Shown one piece after another: positions 2,686 through 33,274 of a stretch of DNA of 33,274 bases. Each line of letters starts with the position of its first letter. Positions within the stretch are counted from its first letter, which is position 1. Position numbers and translations under genes: made by a program. A model generated the notes under the pieces. The model had not been told where the DNA came from. It was given only the letters and a program-made list of their open reading frames with translations, and made no database searches. The stretch is taken from the IMG/VR virus record IMGVR_UViG_3300044961_000843, positions 1-33,274 of that record, one strand, 5' to 3'. Source of the stretch: a virus.

Positions 2686-3066
2686 ATGTCCGACGAAGCC
2701 GCCCCCTCCCTGGCCCACGCCGCCTCCCAAGAGCCCCCGCCTCCGGCACCGAAGACCGCGAAGAAGGAGCCCGCTCCTCCGGAGAAGCCCGACATCCGCA
2801 AGGGACTCCTGGAGCTTGCCAGGAGCAGGGGCCTCGTCGGCCTCCCGCTGCTCCAGGCGGCGGCGCAGCTCAACATCCCTGCCCCCTGGGGGGTCGCCTT
2901 GAGCCGCGTCGCCTTCGCGGTCAACACCGGCCTGGCCGGGCACAAGGCCGCCGAGGGCCTGCGCAAGAGCGGCGCCGAGGGCACCGTGAAGGTCGTCGAG
3001 TCCTGCCTCGAAAAGGACGAGCCCGACGTGGTGGCGTACCTCAGGACGCAGTTCCCGGAGAAGTGA
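2686..3066 (+). CDS. Hypothetical protein with proline/lysine-rich N-terminus
   Basis: The protein has 126 residues. Residues 1-40 are low-complexity proline, alanine and lysine (EPPPPAPKTAKKEPAPPEK), probably disordered. Residues 45-126 look like a compact helical domain (RKGLLELARSRGLVGLPLL, then PDVVAYLRTQF). It starts 2 bases after the tandem TGTGCC motif with no visible ribosome binding site, which would suit a leaderless transcript. It ends in a TGATG overlap with the next gene. It is the first gene of the run leading to the large terminase and so may be the first gene of a late transcript. No family is recognised. Confidence 0.65.
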   Translation: MSDEAAPSLAHAASQEPPPPAPKTAKKEPAPPEKPDIRKGLLELARSRGLVGLPLLQAAAQLNIPAPWGVALSRVAFAVNTGLAGHKAAEGLRKSGAEGTVKVVESCLEKDEPDVVAYLRTQFPEK

Positions 3067-9310: not shown

Positions 9311-9505
9311 TCAGAGTTTTCCGAGATCCGGCGTGGGAAACTCCTCACGCGCCCTCCGCGCCACCTGCCGCAAGGCGTACCTCACCAGGTCGCTGTTGCT
9401 GCGGATTCCGGTGACCTCTCGGGCCCGGGCGAGGTCCTGGCGAAGCTGCTCGTCGAGCAGCACCCGCAGGGTCTCTTTTTCCGTCTCTTTCTCGGCTTCG
9501 CCCAT
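9311..9505 (-). CDS. Ribbon-helix-helix (CopG/Arc-type) DNA-binding regulator
   Basis: The protein has 64 residues from the ATG at 9505 (in-frame ATG 9514 is an alternative). It fits the ribbon-helix-helix pattern: a strand near residues 11-17 (ETLRVLL), a first helix at 18-31 (DEQLRQDLARAREV), the turn GIRSNS, and a second helix from SDLVRYALRQVARRA. Such proteins dimerise through the strand and insert it into the major groove, usually binding repeated half-sites. It is the only regulator seen and the only minus-strand gene between 1 and 24600. An exact tandem TGTGCC motif sits immediately upstream of its start, which suggests autoregulation. The opposite-strand reading frames over it look like shadows. 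Confidence 0.82.
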   Translation of the reverse strand: MGEAEKETEKETLRVLLDEQLRQDLARAREVTGIRSNSDLVRYALRQVARRAREEFPTPDLGKL

Positions 9506-9507
9506 GA

Positions 9508-9525
9508 GGCACATCTTGGCACAGT
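9508..9525 (-). promoter_or_regulatory. Tandem TGTGCC operator/promoter motif, site 2
   Basis: On the minus strand this reads ACTGTGCCAAGATGTGCC, two TGTGCC half-sites 10 bp apart, ending 2 bases before the ATG of the ribbon-helix-helix gene. The geometry relative to the start codon matches site 1, and again no Shine-Dalgarno sequence is visible. It lies in the divergent gap between this gene and the head gene that begins at 9568. Confidence 0.6.
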
Positions 9526-9567: not shown

Positions 9568-10329
9568 GTGGCCAACGATTCCAAGCAGTTGCGCCAAGTT
9601 GTGCCACGGGGTCAAACTACCCGTGTGACCGCCACCCTCGCCCTCGCCCTCGGGATCACCACCCGTGACCCTTCCCGCCCTGGCGCAGGCTGCGAGGCGA
9701 GCGTCCGCGACGCGGCAGCCACCAGCCACGACTACGTCGACCCGACCCCTCGCAACGTCAGCACCGCGGGTGGGGTCGGGGCGGCCTTCGTGCAGCTCGA
9801 AACCCCTGTGGCCCAAGTGGAGCGTTTCGTCGCGGACCTGCCCGCTGGCACGGACCTCGTGCTGCGCTTCGGCGGCGCGGTGGCGGAGGTGCTTGGCACC
9901 AGCGCCGCCACGGGCTTCAGTGGCGGCGAGACCGCGGTGCTGGCCATCGACGCCGGCGGCAACGTCACCGTCACTTTCGAGTCCACCGACACCACGCAGG
10001 CCCTCGCGGCGAAGCGGATCAACTGGGCTCTGGGCGCCCAGGTCGCCGACACGGACAGCGACGGCAAGCTCCGCCTCCGGAGCCTTCGCACAGGCGACGC
10101 AGGGGCCGCGGCCAAGGGGTACGCCTACGGGCGCGTCCGGGTGGTGAGCGGCAGCGCGCTCGCGGGCCTGGGGCTCGTGGCGGGCGACACCTACGGCCAG
10201 GGCGACGATCAGCGCGTCGGTTCTGGCCTCTTCGCCAAGACCTTCCCCGCGGGCGCCCTGCCTCGCCGGGTGGAGCTGAGCGGCTCGGCGCAGGGCGCCA
10301 AATTCTGGGTCGCCGGCAAGGCGAACTGA
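9568..10329 (+). CDS. Head-region structural protein with a flagellin-hook-IN-like module
   Basis: The protein has 253 residues. GTG 9568 has AGGA seven bases upstream (9557-9560), which makes it the best start. GTG 9601 and GTG 9625 are in frame downstream. Residues 1-110 are beta-rich and contain VDPTPRNVSTAGG and TDLVLRFGG. Residues 117-204 form a module (FSGGETAVLAIDAGGNV, then INWALG, KLRLRSL and LAGLGL) that matches in order a module of the sheath protein and recalls the IN motif of flagellar FliD. The C-terminus (ALPRRVELSGSAQGAKFWVAG) looks like a compact beta domain. It sits before the scaffold and capsid genes, so a head decoration or vertex role is likely but not certain. Confidence 0.7.
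   Translation: MANDSKQLRQVVPRGQTTRVTATLALALGITTRDPSRPGAGCEASVRDAAATSHDYVDPTPRNVSTAGGVGAAFVQLETPVAQVERFVADLPAGTDLVLRFGGAVAEVLGTSAATGFSGGETAVLAIDAGGNVTVTFESTDTTQALAAKRINWALGAQVADTDSDGKLRLRSLRTGDAGAAAKGYAYGRVRVVSGSALAGLGLVAGDTYGQGDDQRVGSGLFAKTFPAGALPRRVELSGSAQGAKFWVAGKAN
9589..9606 (+). promoter_or_regulatory. Near-match to the tandem TGTGCC motif, site 3
   Basis: The sequence TTGCGCCAAGTTGTGCCA keeps the 10-bp spacing but has one change in the first half-site. It lies in the first codons of the head gene (from 21 bases after its GTG), 64 bases from site 2 and facing the other way. It could be a downstream operator for the head-gene promoter. It also encodes ordinary protein sequence (RQVVP), so chance is possible. 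Confidence 0.35.
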
Positions 10330-20582: not shown

Positions 20583-21781
20583 TGGCCACGGCGCGCCTCT
20601 CCCCGGAACAGCTCGCCGAAGCGGTCATGCGACGGCGCTTCGACCAGCGAGGCAACGCCCTGGTCGTCGAACGGGGGCTCCCGTCGGTAGCCTCTGGCGT
20701 GACGCTGGTGGTCCAGGAGCTGGGCCCCGGGCCGATCACGATCTTGCTTCGGCGAGGCCTCGGGATTGAGGAGGGCGCCGAGTGGACCACGGAGACCAAG
20801 GGGGAGACCCGCACGCCCATGGGGGCTAGCGAGGGGTACTCGAGCGTCACCGGCACCACCTACGACAAGACGGAGATGACCCTCGCCCTGGACCCGGCGC
20901 ACCTGCGTCCCGGGGACCTGTCGGTGGTGGGGACCGTGCCGCCCACCAACGCGGAGCAGATCCTGGCCCTGTTCGAGGCGCTCCAGGCCAGGGCGCGCTC
21001 GTGCCTGGTGCAGCTCGGGCCGCTGACCCGGAGGGGCATCCTGCGGCGCGTGACGGTGCGGCCTGGGCGCGGCGCCAGCGTGGACCTCGGCGGGGGGCGT
21101 GTGGCGCCGAGCTTCGGCTTTGCCCTGGTGCTGACCTGGGAGTGGTCCGGGCTGGGGGAGCCCGTCCCCCGACCCGAGCAGCCCCCCTCCGGCGCGGACC
21201 TCGCCGGGCAGCTCGGGGCCGCCGACAGCGGCTACGGCCTCGCCCTGGCGGAAGCCGGCGACGCCTTCGACCCGGACGCGCTCACGGCGATCCGGGGCGC
21301 CATCGGTCGGGTGCGCGCCGGCGTGAGCCAGCTCCGCCGCACGGTGCAGCAGATCGGAAGCCTCGCCGCCGCCCCGGCCCGCCTGGCCAACGAGGCGCTG
21401 GCCGCCGCCCGGTCCCTGGGGAACGTTCTCCACGACCTGGAAGTGCAGCTCGGCGACACCCGGGACGCCTACCTCGCCGCGGGCAAGGCCGCGCAGGGGG
21501 TCGGGCGAGCGCTGGGCCCCCGGGCGTCCGCGATGGCCAAAGCCCAGCAAGCCAAAGGCGCGATCCGCGAGGCCAACCAGACGGCGATGGATGCGGTCGT
21601 GGCGATCTTCGATGGTCTTGCCCGGAGGCAGGGGCAACGGGTGGCGGTGCGTCCCGGGCAGAGCCTTGCGGACGTGGCCCGAACGGCGCTCGGCGACGCG
21701 GAGCGGTGGCCGGAGATCGCCAGGAAAAACGGCCTCGCGGGGCAGGTGGTGCCGGACGGCGTGCGGGAGGTGGAGGTGTGA
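20582..21781 (+). CDS. Tail/baseplate protein with C-terminal LysM-like domain
   Basis: The protein has 399 residues, and its ATG shares a base with the tape-measure stop. Residues 1-200 are beta-rich with a GYSSVTGTTYDKTEMTLALDP segment. Residues 220-340 are helical and alanine-rich. The last 48 residues look like a LysM domain (QRVAVRPGQSLADVARTALG, then RWPEIARKNGL). LysM-like ends are common in tail proteins located between the tape measure and hub of contractile systems (T4 gp53-like, Mu gpN region), where they link baseplate parts or bind peptidoglycan. It precedes the hub gene with a 4-base overlap. Confidence 0.7.
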   Translation: MATARLSPEQLAEAVMRRRFDQRGNALVVERGLPSVASGVTLVVQELGPGPITILLRRGLGIEEGAEWTTETKGETRTPMGASEGYSSVTGTTYDKTEMTLALDPAHLRPGDLSVVGTVPPTNAEQILALFEALQARARSCLVQLGPLTRRGILRRVTVRPGRGASVDLGGGRVAPSFGFALVLTWEWSGLGEPVPRPEQPPSGADLAGQLGAADSGYGLALAEAGDAFDPDALTAIRGAIGRVRAGVSQLRRTVQQIGSLAAAPARLANEALAAARSLGNVLHDLEVQLGDTRDAYLAAGKAAQGVGRALGPRASAMAKAQQAKGAIREANQTAMDAVVAIFDGLARRQGQRVAVRPGQSLADVARTALGDAERWPEIARKNGLAGQVVPDGVREVEV

Positions 21782-23532
21782 GCGTCGTCCGGGTGGCCTG
21801 CGGGGTGACGCTCCGGGTAGAGCTCTACGACGAGCTGGACGGCCCGGAAGCGCGCCGGGCTGCGGAGGCCGTGAACCTTGCGCTGGCCGTGGCCAACGCT
21901 ACCCGGGCGAAGGAGGGCAAGCCGCCGCAGCCTCTCAACGCCGACCCCTGTGCCTACGTCGAGGAGAGCGGGGCGAGCCGCAAGCGACCCTTCTTCGTGC
22001 TCCTGGACCTGGCGCCGCTGAGCTGGTCGGTGACCTACAACAGCTTCCGCCGCGCCGACGAGTTCGAGTGCGTTTTGCCGCTCGCGGTCCTGCCCGTGCC
22101 CCCGGAGGCGATCCGAGCGATCACCTGCGAGGTGCTGATCCGGCAGCTTTCCGCCGAGGAGTGGGACGAGGGGCTGCGGGTGCCTCGCCTCGCGGACCAC
22201 CGGGACCAGGTGGACTTCGCCGGAATCTGCTCGTCGGAGGCCGTGTCGATCGGCGACGGCTCGCTCCCCACGGTGAAGCTCCCGTTCCGGGATTACCTCG
22301 GGCTGCTGGCGTCGAAGAAGGTTCCAGCGGGGGTGAGCCTGGACCAGAGCCTGACGCTCAGCGAGGCGATCCGCAGGCTGCTCGTGGGCACCCCGGCGGA
22401 GGGCTTGTGCGTGCGGTGGGTCGACCCCACCAGCGAGGAGCCCACCGCCGGGCGCCACGTCCCCAAGGCCCAGAAGAAGGCCGGCAAGACCGCCAAGAAA
22501 CCGACCGGGGGACAGCAGAGCTACCTCGACGTGATCACCGAAGAGGCCGCGCGGCTCGGGTGCGTGGCGAGGCTGCGGGTGACGACGATCGAGCTGAGCA
22601 CCGCAGGCCCGCTCTACGAGGGCCGCGCCAGCACCAGCAAGGCGGCGCTGCTGGTGGGCCAGGTGGTGGAGAGCATCGAGGCAGAACACCAGCTCGTGGG
22701 GGTCAAGAGCCAGTCGGTGCAGGTCGTGGGGTACAACCCCGACACGGGCGACTCCTACACGGCCCGGTGGCCCCCGGACCCGAAGGGCCAGAAGGCGACG
22801 CTGGTCGAGCCCGGGAGGCCCCCGAGGCTGCCCCCGGTGGCGGCGAACATCGGCCTCCCTGGCTACGAGCAGCTCGACGAGAGCGTGCTGCTGATCCCCT
22901 GGGGGCCGGTGGCGAGCAAGGAGCGGCTCCTGGAGGTGGCGCAGATGATCTTCCTGGAGCGCACCCGCCAGCGCGTAAAATACACGATCAAAACCCACGC
23001 CCCGTGGTCCAACCCTCTGGAGCCCGACGCCCAGGGCGGCGACCTGCTGCGGCTACGGGCCGGGGATACGGTGGACTTCGGCTACCTGGCCGGCGGGGAC
23101 AACCCGCTGCTCCCGCCGGAGGTCCAGGCCCTGACGGGGATCGTGAGCGCCGAGGGCATGGCCGGACTGCTCCAGGCCTCCGGGGTGCCAGAGGTCACGG
23201 CGAAGCGCATCGGGGGGCTTCTGGCGTCGGTGCCGCGACTGTCGAAGTTCCGGGTGGACGAGTTGCAGGTGAGCGGCGGCGAGCGGCAGGACGTGGAGCT
23301 GACCTTTCGGCTGGTGAACTTCGTCCAGATCGTCGGGGACTTCCAGGGCGACGTCTTCGCCGAGGCCTTCTCGAAACTCCAGGCGAAGGTGAGCGCGCTG
23401 GCCGCCGGCCCTCTTGAAGAAGCGAAGGCGGCCTTTGCCGCCGCTTACCAGAGCCTTGCCTCGCTGTCGGACGCAGCGGAGGCCCGTGCGGCCCTTGACG
23501 CCCTCTGGCGTCAGGCCAGGAGAGGACCATGA
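21778..23532 (+). CDS. Baseplate hub protein (gpD/gp27-like)
   Basis: The protein has 584 residues from GTG 21778, overlapping the upstream TGA. It lies between the LysM protein and the spike, the place of P2 gpD, Mu gpP and T4 gp27, which form the central ring of the baseplate that holds the spike. It is rich in beta strands (RPFFVLLDLAPLSWSVTYNSF, VKLPFRDYLGLL). A lysine-rich linker (KAQKKAGKTAKKPTGG) near residue 230 joins two halves. The C-terminal 60 residues are helical. Length and order are the main support. It ends in an ATGA overlap with the spike gene. Confidence 0.72.
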   Translation: MSVVRVACGVTLRVELYDELDGPEARRAAEAVNLALAVANATRAKEGKPPQPLNADPCAYVEESGASRKRPFFVLLDLAPLSWSVTYNSFRRADEFECVLPLAVLPVPPEAIRAITCEVLIRQLSAEEWDEGLRVPRLADHRDQVDFAGICSSEAVSIGDGSLPTVKLPFRDYLGLLASKKVPAGVSLDQSLTLSEAIRRLLVGTPAEGLCVRWVDPTSEEPTAGRHVPKAQKKAGKTAKKPTGGQQSYLDVITEEAARLGCVARLRVTTIELSTAGPLYEGRASTSKAALLVGQVVESIEAEHQLVGVKSQSVQVVGYNPDTGDSYTARWPPDPKGQKATLVEPGRPPRLPPVAANIGLPGYEQLDESVLLIPWGPVASKERLLEVAQMIFLERTRQRVKYTIKTHAPWSNPLEPDAQGGDLLRLRAGDTVDFGYLAGGDNPLLPPEVQALTGIVSAEGMAGLLQASGVPEVTAKRIGGLLASVPRLSKFRVDELQVSGGERQDVELTFRLVNFVQIVGDFQGDVFAEAFSKLQAKVSALAAGPLEEAKAAFAAAYQSLASLSDAAEARAALDALWRQARRGP

Positions 23533-24425
23533 GAGCAGATGCAGCGACATCGGGGGCCCTGGCAGAGGCCCTCGACCAGGACCCCAGCGACGGAGGCAGA
23601 CAGCGGTGCTGGAAAGCCCTGGCGAGGGTGGTGGATGAGGAGCCCACCTACGTGTGGCAGGAAGGAGACAGCAACGGGATCACCGTCGCGGCGATGCTGC
23701 TCACGGGGCCGTTTGTCGGCGCAGAGGTGGTGGCGTTGCTGGCGGCGCCCCTCGGCGGGGCGCTCCAGGTGGCGCCGTTCCGCAGGGGACAGCGCATCCT
23801 CGTGGATCTGCTCGACGGGAGGCCGGATGGGCTCTGCGTCGCTACGGCATCGGTCCCCGGCGGCAGGGAAGACCCGATCCCCCCGTCGATTGCGGGTGTT
23901 CCCCTGGACAGCAAGGGCCTGGAAGAGCAGGGCTCGGCGGCGAAGAACAACGCCACGCAGCCCAGGGCGGTGCTCTTCGCGCCCCCCAAGGGGATCGGGC
24001 ACCGCGAGTACTACCGGGGGGCGATCAAGGTGGTGCGCCTCAAGGGACAGCAGAGCGACTTCTTCTCGGGCTTCGTCGTCTCGGCAGACGATGGCACCAC
24101 GATCCAGATGAGCTGGAACGGCGCGACCAACGGCTACGGCGTCCAGATCAAGGACGCGAAGGGGGCGCAGCTCTCCGTGGGCGACGGCGCCGCAGCGCTG
24201 GTGTCCCCCGACGGCAAGAGTCGGATCGAGGTGAGCGACGGGCGGGTGTTCATCACCAGCAACGGGCAGACGCAGGTCTTCGGCTCGCCGATCACCCTCA
24301 ACCACGGGCCCGCGGACGGAGTGCCCACGCTTGCCACCGGGGGCGCGGTGGTGGCGAAGGCCGGGGGGGGCATTGCTGGCGCCGCGGCCATCTCGCAGAG
24401 CGTGTTCGTCGGAGGGGCGAGCTGA
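23529..24425 (+). CDS. Baseplate spike protein (gpV/gp5-like)
   Basis: The protein has 298 residues, with AGAGGA upstream of the ATG. The middle (about 50-115, GITVAAMLLTGPFVGAEVV to RILVDLLDGRPDG) fits an OB-fold. From about 185 on there are short regular beta repeats (DGTTIQMSWNGATNGYGVQI, KDAKGAQLSVGDGAAAL, GKSRIEVSDGRVFITSNG), typical of the triple-stranded beta-helix of gpV spikes that pierce the outer membrane. The final 35 residues are glycine/alanine-rich. The spike-tip candidate follows, sharing a base of the stop codon. Confidence 0.75.
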   Translation: MRADAATSGALAEALDQDPSDGGRQRCWKALARVVDEEPTYVWQEGDSNGITVAAMLLTGPFVGAEVVALLAAPLGGALQVAPFRRGQRILVDLLDGRPDGLCVATASVPGGREDPIPPSIAGVPLDSKGLEEQGSAAKNNATQPRAVLFAPPKGIGHREYYRGAIKVVRLKGQQSDFFSGFVVSADDGTTIQMSWNGATNGYGVQIKDAKGAQLSVGDGAAALVSPDGKSRIEVSDGRVFITSNGQTQVFGSPITLNHGPADGVPTLATGGAVVAKAGGGIAGAAAISQSVFVGGAS

Positions 24426-24622
24426 TGGCTGGGCCGAAGGTGATGACGCCGTGTGGGGAGATCGAGATCCCCCTGCCGTCGTTCGAGATCCCGGGGCTGC
24501 CGAGCCTCGACATTTTTCCCCTGCCGTTCCCGCCGAAGCTGAGCATCCCCCTGCCCGACTGCGACGTGGTGAAGAACGCGATCGGGGCGGCGCAGGAGCC
24601 GCCAGGGGACAGCGAGCCCTAG
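24425..24622 (+). CDS. Small proline-rich protein, candidate spike tip
   Basis: The protein has 65 residues. Its ATG shares a base with the spike stop, so the two are probably coupled. Nearly every fourth residue is proline, with alternating hydrophobic residues (LPSFEIPGLPSLDIFPLPFP) and two cysteines (MTPCGEIEI and LPDCDVV). Small proline-rich proteins directly after gpV-like spikes in contractile phages and injection systems have been proposed as tip proteins taking the place of PAAR proteins. That link is from memory of such operons. It is the last gene of the plus-strand tail operon, and its TAG overlaps a TAG on the other strand (CTAG, 24619-24622). Confidence 0.6.
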   Translation: MAGPKVMTPCGEIEIPLPSFEIPGLPSLDIFPLPFPPKLSIPLPDCDVVKNAIGAAQEPPGDSEP

Positions 24623-24744
24623 AGGCTACCAGAGTCGCAGCAGTAGTAACACTCGCCATTTCCCAGACACGTCTTGAGGTCGCATCCGTTGGAAGCCATC
24701 CACTCGTTCTTCTGGGAGCAAGAGTAGTTGAATTTCTTGCCTAC
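24619..24744 (-). pseudogene. Cysteine-rich C-terminal gene fragment
   Basis: A 41-residue open reading stretch ends at TAG 24619-24621, in a different frame from the neighbouring antirepressor fragment. It holds six cysteines in 28 residues (NYSCSQKNEWMASNGCD, then TCLGNGECYYCC), a density far above chance in this DNA, and codons unlike the surrounding GC-rich ones (AAA, AAT, TAC, TCT). No start codon or plausible N-terminus is seen. It looks like the 3' end of a secreted, disulphide-rich bacterial protein captured beside the phage tail operon. The origin is an inference, and a short artefact frame remains possible. Confidence 0.4.
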
Positions 24745-24904
24745 GCTGCCGCTCGATCTTCGCCCGGATGGCCGGGGCGACCCGGGCCGCGTCGATGGTC
24801 GCCAGCCACAGCGGCAGGGCGTCCAGGTGCAGCGCCATCATCTCGCGGGATTTGCCGTCTTCCGCAACCGTTACGATGGCCGAAACAGTTGCCCAGGTCT
24901 TGCC
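24626..24904 (-). pseudogene. P22_AR_N-type phage antirepressor fragment
   Basis: The reading frame is open from the stop of the minus-strand structural gene (24947) to TAG 24626, and residues encoded by 24904 to 24737 read KTWATVS, TVAEDGKSREM, then LHLDALPLWLATIDAARVAP and AIRAKIERQ. This series matches the middle of the P22_AR_N antirepressor family, where a 'W.T.....DG..R.M..L.L..L..WL..I...RV.P..R.K...Y' pattern is usual. The N-terminal third and everything after KIERQ are missing, and the rest of the frame is unconvincing. A usable start exists only inside (ATG 24841). A decayed remnant is the likely state. Confidence 0.55.
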
Positions 24905-24946
24905 TGGGCCGCGAAAGAGCGCCCCGAGTGGGAGGGGAAGTAGCCC

Positions 24947-26635
24947 TCACGTCACCAGGTCTTCCCCGAAAGGCAGCTTGACCGCCTGGAGCGTTACCAG
25001 GTCGCTCACGAACGTGTTGGTGCTGAGCGTCAGCACGATCTGGTTGAGGTTCGGCCTCCCTGGGGTCACCTGGCGCCGCTCCAGGTCGACAAACGCCAGG
25101 TTCCCGTCCTGGAGCGGCCAGATCCTGCCCGCGTCCTCTCGGCTTCCGGCCACGTCGTAGCCGCTGCCGCTGGCGCCCACCTGGATCAACAGCCTCGCCG
25201 CGTCCAGCGGCAGCGGGACGTCGATGCCTCCGACGGTGAGCTGGGCGAAGCCGTAGGTGCCGCTGGTGTACGTCCGGGGGGAGGCGCTGTTGTTGGCGGT
25301 CATCGAGGGCAGCGTCATCAGCCCCGAGGGATCGGTGGTGCCGGAGAAGATGGCGCTGCCCCTCACCCACCCGTCCTGATCGACGTGCTGCGAGCCCACC
25401 AGCAGCGGCACCCCGTCCACGTCGGTGTACCGGTAGAGCCCGATGCAGATCGCGTCGTCCGGGGTCACGGAGAGGTTCTGGTAGCGGTAGGCCAGGTCGC
25501 CGCGCGCCCAGCCGGGGAGCGTGAGGTTCGCCGAGGGGCGCAGGTCCCAGCGTAGCCCCGACCGGGCCGCCTCGGCGGCGTTCACCCCTGCCCCGATGCG
25601 CGGCGGCGTCGGCGAGAGCACCAGCGCCCCATCTACCTGAACGCCGTCCGCCTGGAGCGTCGGGTGGTGGCCCAGCGGGTAGGCTCCTCGCCGTACCGGA
25701 CGTGGGACGTAGCCGCCGGGTTTGCAGAGGTAGAGCCAGGCAATTTTCGGCGTCGACGGCGAGGCCGTGGCGTCCCAGGTCGCCCCCGGCTCGGCGAGGT
25801 CGCCCACCTGGATCGCGCTGGAGTAGGCCCGGACGCCCAGCAGTTCGTTGCCCAGCCGGGCCCAGGCCCGCCCGAGAAAGATGGTCTGGTTGTAGGTCCC
25901 GCTCAACTGACCCTCGTGGCTGAACTGCCAGCAGCCGCCGATCCGGTTGGGGCCGGGGGCCAGTTCCGGCAGCTTGCGGCAGTCGAAGAACACCGCATCG
26001 GCGAGGTTGGTGGCCCCGGAGGGCACGTAGAGCAGCGCCAGGACGATCCCGTTCGACGGCACCCCGGCGAAATTCGGCGGGGAGTCGACAGAACTCCGGA
26101 GGACGGTGATCGTGAGCTGCTGCTGCTTGACCTTCGCGGCGCTTGCCACGTCGTAGACGCCGGTCCCTTCGTTGAAGACCCGGCGCGCGGTGTCGGTCTC
26201 CACGGTGGCCTCGCTGGCCGTGGCGTAGACGAGCCAGTACTCGTAGCCGGGGAGGGCTCCGCCGGGAGGAGAGGCTGGGGAGACCGTGGCCCCGAGCGGC
26301 AGGATGCCGACGCAGCGCGGGTAGTCGTCGTCCTCGTAGGTCCCGGTCCAGCTCCCGGGCCGGGTCGCGTTGCTCCCGGCGGTCCAGTCGATCAGCATGG
26401 CTCCGGCGGTCACGTCCACCTGCCAGCCCGACGCCCAGACGACCTCCAGGCCGCGGAGGCAGCGACCTCGTATCCTGCCGGGGTCCAGGGAATCGCCGAG
26501 GCCGCTACCGCGGACCCCGAGCGCCCGGCGCATGGCGAACCCCTCGGCGACCCGGGCCAGGTCACGGCGCTGAAATCGCTGCATCAGGTTGAGGTCCAAC
26601 GCGGTGAGGCGCTCGAGCAAATAGCGAACGATCAT
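24947..26635 (-). CDS. Tail fibre/baseplate structural protein, last gene of the minus-strand operon
   Basis: The protein has 562 residues, and its ATG at 26635 overlaps the upstream stop (ATGA). The N-terminal 35 residues are helical (YLLERLTALDLNLMQRFQRR), as in baseplate-attached fibre or capping proteins. The rest is beta-rich with aromatic and glycine/threonine stretches (WSGWQVDVTAGAMLID region, TWTGTYEDDDYP, SANLTLPGWARGDLAYRYQN). Such large beta proteins after gpJ and gpI-like genes usually join the baseplate to fibres. Its stop TGA is followed in the same frame by the antirepressor fragment. No enzymatic motif is seen. Confidence 0.65.
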   Translation of the reverse strand: MIVRYLLERLTALDLNLMQRFQRRDLARVAEGFAMRRALGVRGSGLGDSLDPGRIRGRCLRGLEVVWASGWQVDVTAGAMLIDWTAGSNATRPGSWTGTYEDDDYPRCVGILPLGATVSPASPPGGALPGYEYWLVYATASEATVETDTARRVFNEGTGVYDVASAAKVKQQQLTITVLRSSVDSPPNFAGVPSNGIVLALLYVPSGATNLADAVFFDCRKLPELAPGPNRIGGCWQFSHEGQLSGTYNQTIFLGRAWARLGNELLGVRAYSSAIQVGDLAEPGATWDATASPSTPKIAWLYLCKPGGYVPRPVRRGAYPLGHHPTLQADGVQVDGALVLSPTPPRIGAGVNAAEAARSGLRWDLRPSANLTLPGWARGDLAYRYQNLSVTPDDAICIGLYRYTDVDGVPLLVGSQHVDQDGWVRGSAIFSGTTDPSGLMTLPSMTANNSASPRTYTSGTYGFAQLTVGGIDVPLPLDAARLLIQVGASGSGYDVAGSREDAGRIWPLQDGNLAFVDLERRQVTPGRPNLNQIVLTLSTNTFVSDLVTLQAVKLPFGEDLVT

Positions 26636-28017
26636 GGGTAGCTCCAGGCGGGTAGGTGGTAGAGCTGCACCAGGCAGCCGGCGGGCTTGGCCGCGTTGAC
26701 CGCAGAGAAAAGAAGGCGCCGCACGCGCGCCACGGTGTCCGCGGGCAGGCTGTCCGGCGGATCCCAGCGGACGACGGCTGCCCAGCGCAGGGTGCCGGGC
26801 TCCAGGAGCGCGAGCCCCGGGTTGAAGAACGGGTCCAGGAGGGTGTAGCTGGGGTCCCGGCTCGCCATCCCGTCGGGGGTCTCCGGCGTGCTCATGTCGG
26901 TCGAGTGAAGGTCGGAGATGGCGCCCAGCGCCGCCGGGAAATTGAGGGCGTAGGGGTCGATGCTGTCCGGCGCGTGCGCCCCCAGTTCGTAGATCCGCAG
27001 GTCCAGGCGACCGAACCCCCACGGCGCCAGCGTGCGGATCGCGGCCCGCAGCGCGCCGAGCGGAGAAGGACGCTCGTGGCGCTGGGCCAGGCGGTCTCGG
27101 AGCAGCGCATCCTCCTCGCCAGGACGACGGGGGCGCCCCACCTGCTCGCCCAGCTCGTCGAGGAGCCCGAGGCTGCCCCCGGTCGCCGCGGTGGTGTTCT
27201 CGACGGCGAACAGTTCGTCCCAGGGGATCGCCCGCCAGGAGAAGCCGAACGCGCCCGTGGTCCACGGCACCATCCAGGCGTCGGCGGTCGTATCGGACTG
27301 CTCTCCCCAGGCGTACTCGTTGTCTCCAGCCTCTGCGGCCTCAGCAAAGGAGGCTCCATCGTTGACGGCGGCAATGCGCAGCGCTCGCCCCTCGTTGGCC
27401 TCACCAGGCGCCAGGACCGTGCTCAGCTCGACGTAGCTCCCCACCAGCTCGGCACGGAACGCATGCGGCACCGTGGGGTCGGTTCGCAGGCGCATGGCCT
27501 TGGGCTGGACCATGCCGCCCGGCAGCAGGTCCACCGCGAGCCCGACCCCGCTGAGGCCGTCGGTGGTCTCCCGAAACGCCGTCAGCTCGCCGGCCGGGAT
27601 GTGCTTGTGCCCTGGGAGCACGGCGGTGGCGCCCACGGTCTTCGTCACCCCAACCTCGCCGACGCCCCAGGTCAGGGCGCTGTCGGTGAGGAACACGTGG
27701 CCGTCGGGGGTGGTGACCGCCACGCCGGCGGGCAGGGTGATCGGGCGCGTGGTCTTGAGGGTGCGGCGCAGCGTCACCGCCAGGGTCAGGGTGGCGTAGG
27801 TGGGGCCGCTCGCGGGGTCGGTCTCCTGGGCGCCGTGCGGCACGAGCCAGAGCTGCCCGGCCCGCTCGGCGTCTTCCTGGTCCGCGGCGATCAGCGCGTC
27901 CACGTAGAGGCCCAGCAGCGCCTCGCCGTCGGGGGTGGAGCGCAGCTCCGCCAGCCACCCCCCGTCCACGCGCCCGGCGAGCAGATCCAGGGCCTCGGCG
28001 AAGGTGAGGACGCTCAT
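26632..28017 (-). CDS. Large baseplate wedge protein (gpI-position)
   Basis: The protein has 461 residues. Its ATG at 28017 overlaps the gpJ-like stop by ATGA, and its own stop overlaps the next ATG. Residues 85-200 are beta-rich (TRPITLPAGVAVTTPDGHVFL, then LPGHKHIPAGELTAF) and recall the gpJ-type wedge fold. The C-terminal half has helices and GEEDALLRDRLAQRHERPSPLGAL, cited as GEEDALLRDRLAQ, as in proteins that follow gpJ. It takes the place of P2 gpI but is much longer. Its role in the baseplate wedge is inferred from order. Confidence 0.6.
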   Translation of the reverse strand: MSVLTFAEALDLLAGRVDGGWLAELRSTPDGEALLGLYVDALIAADQEDAERAGQLWLVPHGAQETDPASGPTYATLTLAVTLRRTLKTTRPITLPAGVAVTTPDGHVFLTDSALTWGVGEVGVTKTVGATAVLPGHKHIPAGELTAFRETTDGLSGVGLAVDLLPGGMVQPKAMRLRTDPTVPHAFRAELVGSYVELSTVLAPGEANEGRALRIAAVNDGASFAEAAEAGDNEYAWGEQSDTTADAWMVPWTTGAFGFSWRAIPWDELFAVENTTAATGGSLGLLDELGEQVGRPRRPGEEDALLRDRLAQRHERPSPLGALRAAIRTLAPWGFGRLDLRIYELGAHAPDSIDPYALNFPAALGAISDLHSTDMSTPETPDGMASRDPSYTLLDPFFNPGLALLEPGTLRWAAVVRWDPPDSLPADTVARVRRLLFSAVNAAKPAGCLVQLYHLPAWSYP

Positions 28018-29138
28018 GCGAAGGTCACCAGGTCGGGGCGGGTCCGGTAGATCGTGCTCTTCGACGCAGGCACCAGGTCCACGTCGCCGGGGCTCCCGGG
28101 CTCCAGGCCGTAGGGGGCGGACTCCAGAAACACGAGCCCGGGGATGCGCGCCAGGACCTTCGCCAGGCTGGCCCGAAGGAGCGCGGCGCCGGGCGAGAGC
28201 GCGTTGACGTAGGCCAGGATCGCGGCCTTCGCCTCTTCGCGGACCCGCTCCGCGGCGAAGGTGTCCAGCACCCCGAATTGCAGAGAAAACGCACGGAAAT
28301 CGGGTGTGGTCCCGACAAAGCGAACCTCCTGCCCCAGCAGCCGAAAATCCCGCAGCCTCGCCCGCACCCTGGCCAGGAGCCCCAGCGTGGCTCGGCCCTG
28401 GGCGTCGGCGAGGTAGACGGTGACCGCGCCGGTCACGACTCCGTCGCTGTCCAGATCTTCGACGGCGGCGACGGTGTTCACCCCGGGGACGCTCAGGGCG
28501 CCAGCCGCCAGGACGTCCAGATTCCGGTCGAGCCCCGCGTCCCACAGTGCGTAGCGAGCTCGATACGCCTCGTCCGTCTCGCGCTCGTCGCCCCCGGCGG
28601 AAGGGATGCCGAAGCTTTCCACGATCATCGTGGGGTCGAAAAGGGCGCCCACGTTTTTGAACACCTGGACGTCTGGCGGCACCCCGTTCCCCAGCGCCCC
28701 CAGGGTGAGACAGGTGGCGCTGGTCCGAAACGGCCCGAGCTGTCCGGAGCCGAAGACCACGCTCTCGTCCAGGGTCCAGGTGAGTCCTCCGGCCAGGATC
28801 TCCGTGCCTGCGTCCACCTGCCCCTCGCCCGCGTCCGCGGTGGGTCGAAAGAGGTAGAGGTCGAGGGTCGCCGCGCTGGCGGTCTTGCGAGGGAGGCGCC
28901 CCTTGCTGCGCTCCAGGATCAGCCGGTCCAGGTCCTCGCCGCGAGCCCCGGCCACGGTCTGCGCGGCGAAGCGGGCAGCGCTCCGCGCGTCGAGTTCCTC
29001 CGCGAGCGCCGCAGCGCCGTTGACCAGGATATTGATGGTTGAGCCGGTCTTGTCGACGGCGGCGGGGTCGAGCTGGGCGTCCGGGGTGATGCGGATGCGG
29101 TTGCGGGCGATGCGGGCAAAATCGGCTCTCGTGGCCAT
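28014..29138 (-). CDS. Baseplate wedge protein, gpJ-like
   Basis: The protein has 374 residues. Its ATG at 29138 overlaps the upstream stop. It matches the baseplate J family in layout: a helical N-terminus with GEDLDRLILERSKGRLPRK at about 67, a beta domain (AGTEILAGGLTWTLDES), the conserved 'GG.RETDEAYRARY...' segment at about 185 (GGDERETDEAYRARY), and a C-terminal domain with GQEVRFVGTTPDFRAF and IPGLVFLESAPYGL. gpJ forms the wedge with the gp25/W-like protein encoded just upstream. Confidence 0.88.
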   Translation of the reverse strand: MATRADFARIARNRIRITPDAQLDPAAVDKTGSTINILVNGAAALAEELDARSAARFAAQTVAGARGEDLDRLILERSKGRLPRKTASAATLDLYLFRPTADAGEGQVDAGTEILAGGLTWTLDESVVFGSGQLGPFRTSATCLTLGALGNGVPPDVQVFKNVGALFDPTMIVESFGIPSAGGDERETDEAYRARYALWDAGLDRNLDVLAAGALSVPGVNTVAAVEDLDSDGVVTGAVTVYLADAQGRATLGLLARVRARLRDFRLLGQEVRFVGTTPDFRAFSLQFGVLDTFAAERVREEAKAAILAYVNALSPGAALLRASLAKVLARIPGLVFLESAPYGLEPGSPGDVDLVPASKSTIYRTRPDLVTFA

Positions 29139-29851
29139 CAGGTTCCTCCGGCGGTGAGGCGCTCGACGAAGGCGAAGGGGGGGGCCCCGGCACGGGGCTC
29201 CACCGTCACCTCGAAGCGCACGACGTGGGCCGCCACGAGCTGAGCACTGACGCTGGCGCTCAGCACGTCCGGATCCCGGCGGATCTCGTCGGCGAGGGCG
29301 GTGGCTTCCCGGTCGAGTTGCGCCTGCGTGTAGCTACGCTTTGGCTCGACCCCCCGGCCGAAGGTCTTGGCGTGGGTGAAGGCGCCTCGCCGCGCCCTCA
29401 CCAGCAGCCGGAGCCGCTCCCGGAGCGCATCCACGGGAGTGAGGCCCAGCGGGGCCCCCCGGGGCGCCGTGACGGGCAGGAGCACGTCCGCGTCAGGCTG
29501 CCCCGGGACGGGCCCCGAGCGGGCCCGGGGGGTCCGGGCGTCGAAGGTCACGCTGGCGGTGCTGGTGGGCTCGCCTGCGGCGCTCCGGGTGCCCTCGGCG
29601 AGCCCCAGGGTGTAGCTCTGGCCAGGGGTCAGGGGCCTGTCGAGGTCGAGCCAGAAGGCCGACGGGGGGATCTCCGGCTCCGCTGGCACAACCTGGCGCA
29701 CAAGCGGGGGTGCCTCGCCCCCCAGAACCCACGCGCCGGGGGCGAGGGTGTCCCGGGGGTCCGCCGGGTCCACGGCGTCTCCCGGCACGGCGGTCTGGGC
29801 AAAAATCCGGGTCTCGCTCACTGCGCGGGCCCGGGTTACGGCGTAGTCCAC
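29138..29851 (-). CDS. Baseplate wedge protein, gp25/GpW-like, with N-terminal extra domain
   Basis: The protein has 237 residues from GTG 29851, the first gene of the minus-strand operon. The C-terminal 110 residues are gp25-like: LRERLRLLVRARRGAFTHAKT, then KRSYTQAQLDREATALADE and HVVRFEVTVEP, matching the helical domain and final strands of T4 gp25/P2 gpW, a lynchpin of sheath attachment. Residues 1-110 are extra for this family (gp25 is about 130 residues) and look like an immunoglobulin/Fn3-type domain (SYTLGLAEGTRSAAGEP). It is separated from the plus-strand fibre gene by 45 bases that contain motif site 4. Confidence 0.75.
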   Translation of the reverse strand: MDYAVTRARAVSETRIFAQTAVPGDAVDPADPRDTLAPGAWVLGGEAPPLVRQVVPAEPEIPPSAFWLDLDRPLTPGQSYTLGLAEGTRSAAGEPTSTASVTFDARTPRARSGPVPGQPDADVLLPVTAPRGAPLGLTPVDALRERLRLLVRARRGAFTHAKTFGRGVEPKRSYTQAQLDREATALADEIRRDPDVLSASVSAQLVAAHVVRFEVTVEPRAGAPPFAFVERLTAGGT

Positions 29852-29869
29852 GCCCCCAGGCTACCAGGG

Positions 29870-29885
29870 TGTGCCAGATTGTGCC
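29870..29885 (+). promoter_or_regulatory. Tandem TGTGCC operator/promoter motif, site 4
   Basis: TGTGCCAGATTGTGCC has two exact half-sites 10 bp apart, in the 45-base divergent gap between the baseplate operon (start 29851, minus) and the tail fibre gene (start 29897, plus). It points toward the fibre gene and ends 11 bases before its GTG. Here a possible ribosome site (GGCAGG) lies between motif and start. Confidence 0.6.
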
Positions 29886-29896
29886 ATCCTGGCAGG

Positions 29897-31354
29897 GTGC
29901 CCCAGGTCACCGCCGCTATCGTCATCGCCCAGGCGGACAACCCCGCTCCGGGGGGCTACGTCTCCGGGTCTCGGGACGGTCTGCTGCTGAACAAGCTCGT
30001 CACGCTGACCAACCTGTCGAACGCGGGGGTCACGAGCTGGACCTGGGAGGTGTTCCCGGCGGTGGGGCTCACGGAGGGGGACTACAGCGTGGCCGGGAAG
30101 GCTGCGGCGAGCTGCACCCTGACCCCGCCGGCTTCGACCGGGTACGGCGACCTTGCGGTGCGGCTCACGGTGCGCGGGGATCCGCTCCCGGGAGGGCGCC
30201 CGAATGTCGCCGTCGCGGAGGCGCTCTTGGGCGTCCGGGCCCCACTCGACGGCTACGAAGACGGGCTCCCCCTGGTCCATCCCCACGAGGGCACCCTGGG
30301 GGGGAAATTGGTCCTGTCCGCGGTGCGCGGCGCCCTCGGGCGGATCAGCGAGGCGATTCGTGCCTTCAAGATCGCCGGAGTGGGCGGTGGCGGCCCTCCC
30401 TCCGGCGCTGCCGGCGGCGATCTGAGCGGCACCTACCCGAACCCCACGGTGGCCAAGATCCAGACGATCCCGGTCGATATCAGCGGCATCGCCGTCGGCG
30501 CCTTGCTCCAGTACCGAGGCGGCGAGTTGGTCCCGATCAATCCGGTCGCTGAGGGGGCGCTTCTGGTGTGCTGGCCCGGGGCAGGAGAAGAGATCTTTTT
30601 CTCCGAGGCCCCCGAGGTGAGGGTTACAACCTATTTTGCCAGCTACCGTGGGCATCCGGACACCGGCCTCAGCCTCGGGGCCTCGGACCTTGATGCAGGT
30701 GGCACCGGCACGCGCACCATGCTGACCGAGGAGCTGGTCTGGCACACGATCCGACTGATCGGCGCCCTCACCGGCGATCGCATCCTGATTTTCCCTGCGG
30801 GCGGAGGGCGCGCGCATCACCTGATCAACGCGACCACCGGCGATTTCACCCTCCGCATCCAGGGCCCCTCCGGTGGATTCTGCTACCTGCTCCCGGGGCA
30901 GGGCAAAACGATGTTCGTCGACGACTCGGGTGTGCTGCGCGGCGAGGCCCTCGACGTTCTGGAGCTGGTCCGGACGATCACGCTCACCGGCGACACCGAT
31001 AGCGCCAACGTGGTGCGCGTGCTGTGCAAGCTCCCGCCGAGGGTCATCGTCGAGCGCGTCGAGCAACTGACCCTGGAGGCGGCGAGCGACGCGGGGCACC
31101 TGTCGAGCGTCGGTACGGTGCCGCCCGGGGCAGGGCCGGGGTACGACGACCTGATCGCACGACAGGTGACGCCGGGGACCAGCGACCCTCCGCTCGGGTG
31201 GGCAGCGGCCACGCTGGGGGCAGGGATGAGCACGGAGGGCTCGGCCTATTTCGCCAGCGCGGAGACGGTACGGCACGTCAGCCGACCCGACAGTGGGACG
31301 CTGACGACAGGCCAGGTGCGGATCCATCTGACAGCGAGGTACCTCGGTGAGTAA
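29897..31354 (+). CDS. Tail fibre protein
   Basis: The protein has 485 residues from GTG 29897. Residues 1-130 form a beta-sandwich-like domain (VTAAIVIAQADNPAP, VTSWTWEVFPAVGL). At about 175-186 lies GDLSGTYPNPTV, a short repeat unit common in phage tail fibres and their chaperone-independent trimers. The C-terminal half is beta-rich with glycine loops (DRILIFPAGGGRAHHL, LRIQGPSGGFCYLLPG) and ends in a strand-rich tip (LTTGQVRIHLTARYLG). It opens the host-recognition operon, divergent from the baseplate operon. Receptor identity cannot be read. Confidence 0.72.
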   Translation: MPQVTAAIVIAQADNPAPGGYVSGSRDGLLLNKLVTLTNLSNAGVTSWTWEVFPAVGLTEGDYSVAGKAAASCTLTPPASTGYGDLAVRLTVRGDPLPGGRPNVAVAEALLGVRAPLDGYEDGLPLVHPHEGTLGGKLVLSAVRGALGRISEAIRAFKIAGVGGGGPPSGAAGGDLSGTYPNPTVAKIQTIPVDISGIAVGALLQYRGGELVPINPVAEGALLVCWPGAGEEIFFSEAPEVRVTTYFASYRGHPDTGLSLGASDLDAGGTGTRTMLTEELVWHTIRLIGALTGDRILIFPAGGGRAHHLINATTGDFTLRIQGPSGGFCYLLPGQGKTMFVDDSGVLRGEALDVLELVRTITLTGDTDSANVVRVLCKLPPRVIVERVEQLTLEAASDAGHLSSVGTVPPGAGPGYDDLIARQVTPGTSDPPLGWAAATLGAGMSTEGSAYFASAETVRHVSRPDSGTLTTGQVRIHLTARYLGE

Positions 31355-31484
31355 CGCGAAGAAGAAGGCCGCATGCACGCGGCGCCGACTGGCCAGCGAG
31401 GAGGAAGAGAACCTGCTCACGACCGAGGACGGCGACGACCTCACGACCGAGGACGGCGACGATTTGGAGTGGGAGGAGGCGTAG
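31347..31484 (+). CDS. Small acidic repeat protein
   Basis: The protein has 45 residues from GTG 31347, overlapping the fibre stop by 8 bases. The N-terminus is basic (SNAKKKAACTRRRLAS) and the rest very acidic (EEEEN, then two copies of LTTEDGDD). The two copies are a 24-bp direct repeat in DNA (31416-31439 and 31440-31463). It lies between fibre genes, and no family is recognised. A strongly bipolar charge could suit a small adaptor or chaperone. The short length makes expression uncertain, though the overlap and the next gene's ribosome site inside its end support it. Confidence 0.5.
   Translation: MSNAKKKAACTRRRLASEEEENLLTTEDGDDLTTEDGDDLEWEEA
31416..31463. repeat. 24-bp tandem direct repeat
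   Basis: Two copies of a 24-bp unit (31416-31439 and 31440-31463) differ only in the last base and encode the eight-residue repeat of the small acidic protein. Because the unit is a multiple of three, gain or loss of copies by slippage would keep the frame. Confidence 0.85.
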
Positions 31485-31487
31485 ACC

Positions 31488-32594
31488 ATGGCCAAGAAGA
31501 AGATCAGCGAGCTGACCGCAGCCTCGGCCCCCACGGGCGCCGAGGAGGTGGCCGTGGTGCAGAGCGGCACCACGAAGAAGACGACCCTCGACGACGTGCG
31601 GCCCAGGAGCAACCTCGCCGCCACCACGGATCCGAGTGCCAGCAACGACGGGACGCAGGGCTACCGCGTCGGGAGCGCGTGGATCAACACCACGACGCGG
31701 CAAGAGTTCTGGTGCGCGGACGCATCGACGGGGGCCGCTGTGTGGGTCGCCCGCGGGCAGACCTACCGCTACACGACCGCGCAGACGGGCACGTCCTGGG
31801 CGCTGCCTGCGTGGGCCAGGGCCGTGCATTTCGCGGTCATCGGTGGCGGTGCGGGTGGAGGCGGGGGCGCAAAGCGCGCGACGGGCGCCGCCGGAGGCGG
31901 GGGAGGCGGGGGAGGTGGCGGAGGCTTCAGCGACGGCTGGTTCCCCCGAGACGTGCTCGACGCCGCCGGGTCGATCACCCTCGACGTGGGCGCGGGCGGC
32001 CCGGGCGGCAACGGCTCGACGGGCGACACGGGTAGCGGGTCGGCGGGGACGGCGGGCAGCGCGTCGCGCGTGACCAGCGCCACCAGCGGCGACCTGGTGC
32101 GAGCTGGCGGCGGAGCGCAGGGCTCGGGCGGCAACGCGGCCGGCGGCGCGGGCGGAGCCGGAGGGGTCGGGCAGTTCGCGGGTGGCCCGGGCACCGCTGG
32201 CACCACAAACACCACGCCCTCGACCCCCACGGCGCCGGGGCGCGGAGGAGGGGGCGGCGCGGGCGGAGGAGGCCGGAACGCCAGCGACGCCATCGGCCCC
32301 GGTGGAAACGGGTCACCGCGGGCGCAGTCGCAGAGCACGACCGGCGGCGGCACGGGCGGCGCGGCCACGGGCGAGAACGGCGGCGCGGCCACCGGGGGCG
32401 TCGGCTCGCACGGCGGAGGGGGCGGCGGAGGGGGCGGCGGAAACGGGAGCGCCGGGAGCAACGGCGGCGACGGGGGCGCTGGCGCTGGTCCTGGCGGCGG
32501 AGGAGGGGGCGGCGGGTGCGCCACCAACGGGGCGGGGCGGGGCGGAAACGGCGGGGCCGGAGCCCCTGGCCTGGTCGAGATCACGGTGATCTGA
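31488..32594 (+). CDS. Glycine-rich receptor-binding adhesin candidate
   Basis: The protein has 368 residues, with GGAGGAGG at 31471-31478. Residues 1-40 (KKISELTAASAPTGAEEVAV, then GTTKKTTLDD) are the N-terminal attachment pattern common in phage fibre proteins. Residues 118-360 are dominated by glycine in runs of up to 11, with spaced alanine, asparagine and serine, and the end reads GAPGLVEITVI. Glycine-rich tip adhesins such as Salmonella phage S16 gp38 fold into polyglycine II helical sandwiches, and the ending matches glycine-rich phage fibres. Variable residues between glycine runs would decide receptor choice. The DNA is long G tracts prone to slippage, so length errors in the read are possible. 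Confidence 0.7.
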   Translation: MAKKKISELTAASAPTGAEEVAVVQSGTTKKTTLDDVRPRSNLAATTDPSASNDGTQGYRVGSAWINTTTRQEFWCADASTGAAVWVARGQTYRYTTAQTGTSWALPAWARAVHFAVIGGGAGGGGGAKRATGAAGGGGGGGGGGGFSDGWFPRDVLDAAGSITLDVGAGGPGGNGSTGDTGSGSAGTAGSASRVTSATSGDLVRAGGGAQGSGGNAAGGAGGAGGVGQFAGGPGTAGTTNTTPSTPTAPGRGGGGGAGGGGRNASDAIGPGGNGSPRAQSQSTTGGGTGGAATGENGGAATGGVGSHGGGGGGGGGGNGSAGSNGGDGGAGAGPGGGGGGGGCATNGAGRGGNGGAGAPGLVEITVI

Positions 32595-32604
32595 GAAGGC
32601 GAGC

Positions 32605-32910
32605 ATGACCGTAAAAATGGGCTCCCAGGGCGTGTACGTGTTCCCGGACGGGACAGAGCGCCCCTCGCAGGTAGTCGAACTGCTGGGCGGTGACCTGGCC
32701 GCCGTTGTGGTCACCGTGCTGGCCGAGGATGACGGACGCGTCGAGGTGGCCGAGAGCGCAGCGAATAGCCTCGTCGGGTCGACGGGCTACCTGAACCCCA
32801 CCCCCCGGCTCGTGCAGCGCCTCGCGCTGCTGGTGCCCTGGGAGGAGCGGCTCAGCACCGACGAGCTGCCCGAGGGCGTACAGGGGCGGTGGGCGCAGGA
32901 GGATGCGTGA
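32605..32910 (+). CDS. Hypothetical protein after the adhesin
   Basis: The protein has 101 residues, and the ATG lies 10 bases after the adhesin stop with AGAAGG upstream. It begins with a beta hairpin-like stretch (VKMGSQGVYVFPDGTERPSQ), followed by VVVTVLAEDDGRVEVAES and a mixed C-terminal part (LVQRLALLVPWEERL). It has no membrane span. It lies between the adhesin and a membrane-anchored coiled-coil protein, so a fibre accessory or a pre-lysis gene are both possible. No family is recognised. Confidence 0.6.
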   Translation: MTVKMGSQGVYVFPDGTERPSQVVELLGGDLAAVVVTVLAEDDGRVEVAESAANSLVGSTGYLNPTPRLVQRLALLVPWEERLSTDELPEGVQGRWAQEDA

Positions 32911-32963
32911 GAAGCGGCGCCCTGCGCCCGGTTGCTGCCCCGCCGTGCAGCCGAGGAACGACC

Positions 32964-33274
32964 ATGCCCATCGACCCGTTGGCCAGCGGCCTCCTGTCCA
33001 TCCTCGCCGCGGGCGTCGCCGCGACAGGGACGATCTACCAGCACCTGACGCGCCGCGCGGCCGAGGCGGAGTCGAAGGTGCGCGACGGCGAGCGCGAGGC
33101 TCTGCGCTCGGAGATCGACCGGTTGCGCGACGATCTGGGCGCCATGAGCCGGCGGATCGATGGACTCGACACCGACGCCAAGAGCACGCGCGGACAGGTG
33201 CAAAGCCAGGCGCTGGCGCTGGCGGAACACCGCACGGAGCAGCGCAGCCTGGTGGAGAAGATCGACCGGCTGGA
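32964..33274 (+). CDS. N-terminal part of a membrane-anchored coiled-coil protein, possible lysis accessory
   Basis: The gene runs off the window. ATG 32964 has GAGGAA at 32953-32958. The visible 103 residues have a hydrophobic span at 6-23 (LASGLLSILAAGVAATGTIY), then a long charged coiled coil from about 30 on (AAEAESKVRDGEREALRSE, LRDDLGAMSRRIDGL). An N-terminal anchor with an external coiled coil is the pattern of phage holin-associated and inner-membrane spanin proteins such as XhlA or Rz. The missing C-terminus and neighbours prevent a firm call. A lysis cassette would be expected next. Confidence 0.55.
   Translation, partial: MPIDPLASGLLSILAAGVAATGTIYQHLTRRAAEAESKVRDGEREALRSEIDRLRDDLGAMSRRIDGLDTDAKSTRGQVQSQALALAEHRTEQRSLVEKIDRL

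Follow-up and report, generated by a model that had tools for sequence, protein, structure and literature searches.

Why should the baseplate wedge genes of a tailed phage face away from the hub and spike genes beside which they would be expected to run? The locus that raises this question lies in IMG/VR record IMGVR_UViG_3300044961_000843, a contig of an uncultured virus, analysed over its full 33,274 bases (hereafter the window; it is the whole record, and may itself be a fragment of a genome). Beyond the end of its plus-strand tail operon, four minus-strand genes at 24947-29851 include one for a Baseplate_J protein, and a gap of 45 bases separates them from plus-strand fibre-like genes. The evidence set out below makes it likely that this tailed phage, presumably a contractile one, truly has a baseplate operon on the opposite strand: a wedge cassette reversed as a whole at a site that varies between strains, whose transcription would start in the gap it shares with the fibre-like genes. 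From the end of the tail operon onward the region comprises the following features, among them several open reading frames (ORFs) named by position:

21778-23532, plus strand: presumed baseplate hub, as it lies between a LysM-like gene and the presumed spike; neither family searches nor hhalign gave a significant match
23529-24425, plus strand: presumed spike (gpV-like), from position and the look of the sequence; no Pfam or PHROG match, hhalign not significant
24425-24622, plus strand: 65-residue proline-rich gene at the end of the tail operon, whose allele differs between the window and its relative (see below)
24623-24946, minus strand: decayed cargo at the convergent junction, a P22_AR_N antirepressor fragment and then the C-terminus of a Cys-rich protein
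24947-26635, minus strand: gene A, 562 residues, the final gene of the minus unit, whose position suggests a fibre or connector protein; supported as a gene by ORF and codon composition
26632-28017, minus strand: gene B, 461 residues, second wedge-like protein from a weak phrog_6 match
28014-29138, minus strand: gene C, Baseplate_J (gpJ/gp47), from PF04865, phrog_6 and hhalign
29138-29851, minus strand: gene D, 237 residues, gp25/W-like by its place directly upstream of J, with an N-terminal extension
29852-29896: divergent gap of 45 bases between the minus unit (start GTG 29851) and the fibre-like genes (start GTG 29897)
29870-29886, plus strand: direct repeat TGTGCCA-N3-TGTGCCA, a candidate operator from the enrichment of its pattern in the window
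29897-31354, plus strand: fibre-like gene, from ORF and codon composition; no informative family match
31488-32594, plus strand: glycine-rich fibre-like gene, matching PF21722 Gly_rich_2 at E = 8.6e-6, above its cut-off

The initial annotation had described 24947-29851 as a minus-strand unit converging on the tail operon and diverging from the fibre operon, and both its coordinates and its strands hold. The four genes are tightly packed, with mutual overlaps of 1-4 bases, and begin 324 bases after the 65-residue gene. Their composition shows that the minus strand codes. Third codon positions of its ORFs have a GC content of 0.87-0.91, and their codon scores, 0.28-0.46 bits per codon, fall inside the range of the plus-strand genes (0.20-0.63, omitting one entry, g1, at -0.59, whose coordinates are out of frame), and the four plus-strand ORFs tested within the same stretch score between -0.26 and -0.01.

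Sequence profiles firmly assign gene C to the Baseplate_J family, in agreement with the earlier placing of a gpJ-like gene in this unit. The protein matches PF04865 at E = 4.4e-15 (56.1 bits against a cut-off of 21.1, covering profile positions 15-252 of 255) and phrog_6 at E = 5.3e-19, and hhalign comparison with the J proteins of 13 named phages returns a probability of 97.9%. Gene B matches phrog_6, baseplate wedge subunit, weakly (E = 5.4e-5, residues 72-168), and was not significant against J and gpI profiles in hhalign. The neighbouring gene D had been put forward as gp25/W-like; its position directly upstream of J fits that name, but the family searches and hhalign did not confirm it. 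No Pfam, PHROG or NCBIfam match was obtained, alignment with the 13 proteins in the W position was co-linear but not significant (probability 0.7%), and neither thin nor broader profiles nor PDB sequences gave a significant match; the AlphaFold2 model (mean pLDDT 40) was too poor for use. Gene A has no family match, and neither it nor the presumed hub and spike was significant against profiles of their annotated homologues. Read in its own direction, the block runs D, C, B, A, with J second, as expected for W, J, I and fibre. With D, B and A only tentatively identified, this fits the order that follows the spike in Mu and P2, which supports the view of a wedge block turned round. From position, we presume that D is W, that A is a fibre or connector protein and that the fibre-like genes do encode fibres.

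The rest of the window is consistent with a tailed phage. It encodes a terminase large subunit (TerL; phrog_38, E = 2.7e-54 in the PHROG profile search), and weaker matches were found to head morphogenesis (E = 9e-11), major head (E = 6e-6) and portal proteins (E = 1e-4). Since the sole match of the presumed sheath is a PHROG of unknown function (E = 1.8e-12), the contractile tail is presumed from gene order and the J protein. By sequence comparison the phage is remote from the known phages compared, given that a TerL search returned 25 phage records, all with less than 60% identity and with alignments short of 80% of the query, and that sheath, hub and J had no phage match at E ≤ 1e-5.

To place the opposed block among better known systems, we inspected 13 annotated phages (Mu, P2, WOVitA1, HGTV-1, RR1-A, BalMu-1, phiHugo, TJ1, B23, SfV, phiCD08011, X29 and PLPE). 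The sample is small and chosen: three phages were taken by name, eight from among the 30 matches listed of a 111-record search with Mu gp47, and two from a search of phages with the window's J protein at E ≤ 1, which gave six weak records, two of them inspected. In 12 of the 13, J is encoded on the same strand as the sheath, tape-measure or hub genes (phiCD08011 being counted by the tail genes just upstream, as its shown stretch names no sheath, tape measure or hub), and in all ten of the inspected phages with an annotated spike/V gene it shares the strand of that gene. Within this sample J thus bears out the initial annotation, according to which gp25/W-, gpJ- and following genes usually run with hub and spike. 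The W/J-type genes of the window lie opposite its presumed spike and hub, and the locus is not a same-strand tail module of the Mu/P2 type.

The exception among the 13 is WOVitA1, in which V, W, J and I lie opposite the sheath, tube, tape measure and late control D genes, similar to the opposed wedge genes of the window. There, however, V goes with W, J and I, and head genes are on that strand too, whereas the window has its presumed spike on the strand of the hub, the opposed segment being limited to the wedge/fibre part. Module inversions are published for phage WO of Wolbachia (PMC3173496, PMC9203015), the closest known system, with WOVitA1, WOPip4 and WOPip5, and the second paper terms these modules reversed in the sr2WO group (PMC9203015). 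Module flips are thus already known. The position of the break, between spike and wedge genes, is the new detail, as far as the sample and our literature searches for inverted or opposite-strand baseplate modules show.

Two further comparisons are instructive. In P2, V-W-J-I-H-G is annotated as an operon of its own, apart from the operon of sheath, tape measure and D, and the annotation places an activator site between the start sites of P and O, which diverge; the first resembles a separate wedge operon and the second the divergent gap of the window. Yet the V and F operons of P2 are codirectional, V leads the wedge genes, and the genes that diverge are P/Q (terminase, portal) on one side and O with the genes after it on the other. 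In Mu the order is sheath, tube, tape measure, N, hub, spike, gp46 (W), gp47 (J), gp48 and fibre S, like the presumed order in the window, but all these genes run in one direction, whereas in the window the part after the spike is reversed. The invertible G segment of Mu holds fibre and fibre-assembly genes only.

The convergent end of the block can be examined in a second strain. Our scans reach close relatives only and may omit records very near the window. Searches of viral contigs with TerL, the sheath, the major capsid protein and the hub each gave IMGVR_UViG_3300045902_000819 alone (37,642 bases, hereafter G001), the only relative found; TerL had no match in genome contigs. G001 aligns to window positions 103-24633 at 99.9%, with 23 differences: five in 108-297 (two substitutions and three gaps), three substitutions within 300-24330, and 15 from 24331 on. 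The last group consists of 12 substitutions in 24331-24622, dense from 24532, one at 24623, and two gaps. Homology stops just past the 65-residue gene, and beyond the shared core G001 carries minus-strand genes that converge on this same gene and are unlike those of the window. Its cargo at this spot (piece L005, 1-3354) comprises, by eye, a Cys-rich, glycine-rich presumed lipoprotein, whose style presumably recalls Myxococcota, together with an HSDR_N protein (E = 2.6e-11) and another protein with a sub-threshold Bro-N match (E = 0.006). In the window, the corresponding 324 bases hold minus-strand debris: the P22_AR_N remnant matches PF10547 at E = 4.1e-12 but over profile positions 47-99 of 115 only, and the GC content falls to 0.63 against about 0.70-0.72 in the surroundings. 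Given that the two strains carry different minus-strand cargo at one spot, the convergent end looks like a natural site of cargo exchange. The search of G001 with J gave no match at E ≤ 1, which is no proof of absence from that phage, as only 3.3 kb of the contig follow the junction. Towards the opposite end of G001 (piece L006, 12868-17642) we noticed by eye an 847-residue helicase-like ORF, another resembling glycerol-3-phosphate dehydrogenase, and a further Cys-rich presumed lipoprotein.

The opposite, divergent end of the block is marked by a repeat. The gap contains TGTGCCAGATTGTGCCA at 29870-29886, in which two TGTGCCA words are spaced by 10 bases, and the pattern TGTGCCANNTTGTGCCA, built from this site, has five matches in the window at up to three mismatches (the site itself and four others), against 0.48 expected and at most three in any of 100 shuffles. 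The initial annotation had named a 45-base divergent region with a motif site, its site 4; the gap does hold the repeat, and the pattern is commoner than chance. With the starts chosen here, three of the five copies (2668, 9507 and 29870) are wholly intergenic, although just 534 of 32,090 positions are. This placement depends on the starts: ATG 9553 would put the 9507 copy inside an ORF, and the in-frame TTG 29879, an alternative start of the fibre-like gene that shortens the gap to 27 bases, would leave the 29870 copy half inside. The copies at 2668 and 9507 each end one base ahead of an ATG, at 2686 (gene 2686-3066) and at 9505, respectively. In G001 the strict form of the motif occurs only as the three copies inside the shared core, and no more were found in its further sequence. 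The ATG at 9505 opens a further feature:

9311-9505, minus strand: 64-residue ORF from ATG 9505, candidate small DNA-binding regulator, with the motif copy 9507-9523 (minus) one base before its ATG

Taken together, these observations suggest how the locus may have arisen and how it may work. The block D-C-B-A (presumed W, J, second wedge-like protein and fibre or connector) would have been turned as a unit relative to hub and spike, its internal Mu/P2 order being kept, and the break would separate the spike operon from the wedge genes at a point where the minus-strand cargo differs from strain to strain. The wedge block would form a late operon of its own, transcribed leftward out of the 45-base gap; this would act in both directions, serving the fibre-like genes as well, and may hold promoters for both baseplate and fibre transcription. 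The direct-repeat element with its period of 10 bp recurs in the gap, ahead of gene 2686-3066, and ahead of the regulator-like ORF or within its start. Through this element a single phage regulator probably governs both wedge and fibre expression. A baseplate needs its wedge, hub and spike proteins together in order to assemble, so that a break of direction means two opposed operons to coordinate. If the gap really joins wedge and fibre expression, the locus would be a simple case of host-attachment parts regulated, and perhaps exchanged, as a package apart from the rest of the tail; if it does not, this is one more rearranged tail cluster.

Several findings weigh against such an interpretation. 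No relative with the wedge block, which would show the ancestral orientation, was found by J (searched without a match against viral contigs, genome contigs, phages at E ≤ 1e-5 and plasmids at E ≤ 0.1), nor by gene B or a 22-base right-junction pattern in viral contigs. The names given to genes D and A, the hub and the spike are positional, with no confirmed family behind them. Skew at fourfold sites (-0.08 in the minus block, -0.13 in the plus genes to the left and -0.04 in the fibre-like genes) gives no sign of recent inversion and does not date the event; the hub (+0.14) and the spike (+0.11) also depart from the majority of the other plus-strand genes. The initial annotation had both operons transcribed from the shared region: the opposed unit, the gap and the repeated motif stand, but a scan of 23500-33274, confined to sigma-70-type promoters and with a chance expectation of only 0.3, found none. 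Five terminator-like sites in the same stretch, against 2.3 expected, were not used. Two of the five motif matches lie within reading frames, and a third does if ATG 9553 is used; as the two, at 9590-9606 and 29684-29700, both spell Arg-Gln-Val-Val-Pro, they may be coding coincidences. Finally, the contig is not faultless: its first ~115 bases do not agree with G001, and a reading frame there is apparently broken. Over 1-115 it is the replication gene that is apparently out of register, and this end may be chimeric or derive from a diverged strain.

The alternative that fares best concerns the age of the arrangement, and lies within the reading of a turned-round wedge operon without excluding it. 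The minus-strand operon might be an old and stable feature of the lineage that has gathered cargo at its convergent end, a scenario we regard as quite possible while leaning somewhat the other way. It would account for the minus-strand genes that both contigs have at the same convergent site and for block genes whose codon composition and coding-strand skew are like those of plus genes, and P2 offers a precedent with its several late operons, one of which (P, Q) lies opposite O with the annotated activator site between the two divergent starts. No relative with the wedge block was found, however, to show that the layout is shared.

A broader and rather speculative extension of the turned-round cassette, which we think unlikely, is that the genome from packaging to spike is almost frozen, as the three substitutions between the two contigs over 300-24330 might suggest, and that everything beyond, the wedge genes included, is an exchangeable arm that may sit in either direction or carry differing cargo, with a small phage regulator at the divergent gap. 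If so, wedge and fibre genes would be swapped and expressed as one host-attachment package.

An assembly artefact, with the wedge block or one of its junctions wrongly joined, is improbable. A 24-kb core common to both contigs could act as a branching point, the disturbed start of the window shows some fault, and the right junction is present in this contig alone, no other viral contig having the 22-base junction pattern in a scan that may omit records very near the window. On the left, however, the two strains diverge already from 24331, inside the tail operon and before the junction at 24622/24623, so that the junction lies in haplotype-particular sequence, which argues against a misjoin there. 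G001 independently switches strand at the same place, and the block genes are like the rest in composition. The longest word common to both edges is only a direct 10-mer, AGGCTACCAG (24623-24632 and 29858-29867, nowhere else in the window), to which no weight is given because 41 of 387 random region pairs share an equally long word. The initial annotation had asked whether an assembly error lies at 24620 or 29870; the second contig makes one at the left unlikely and does not cover the right. As for a switchable segment like the G segment of Mu, with a recombinase flipping the wedge block, the clean unit and its sharp edges might invite the idea, but we consider it highly improbable and reject Gin-type site-specific inversion, because it would require inverted repeats at the edges, and between the two junctions no inverted match exceeds 7 bases, a length that 370 of 387 random region pairs also reach. 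No invertase gene was noticed in the window, where no dedicated search was made, and particles made with the baseplate genes switched off would presumably be non-infectious.

There remains the 64-residue ORF at 9311-9505, which lies within the plus-strand head cluster and whose frame is open further up (ATG 9514, ATG 9553 and GTG 9607). By eye, 9311-9523 resembles the gene of an autoregulated small DNA-binding protein and is a candidate only; its role as a regulator is a guess. A ribbon-helix-helix fold, also suggested by eye, was not confirmed: the model (mean pLDDT 87.8) consists of two helices and lacks the strand that such a fold should have. The one Foldseek match has E = 4, and VapB_antitoxin, at E = 0.12, falls below its cut-off, the sequence and family matches being unspecific. 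A possible parallel is seen in Vibrio phage X29 (piece L020, 1-92), in which an annotated Arc-like repressor gene lies inside the structural cluster.

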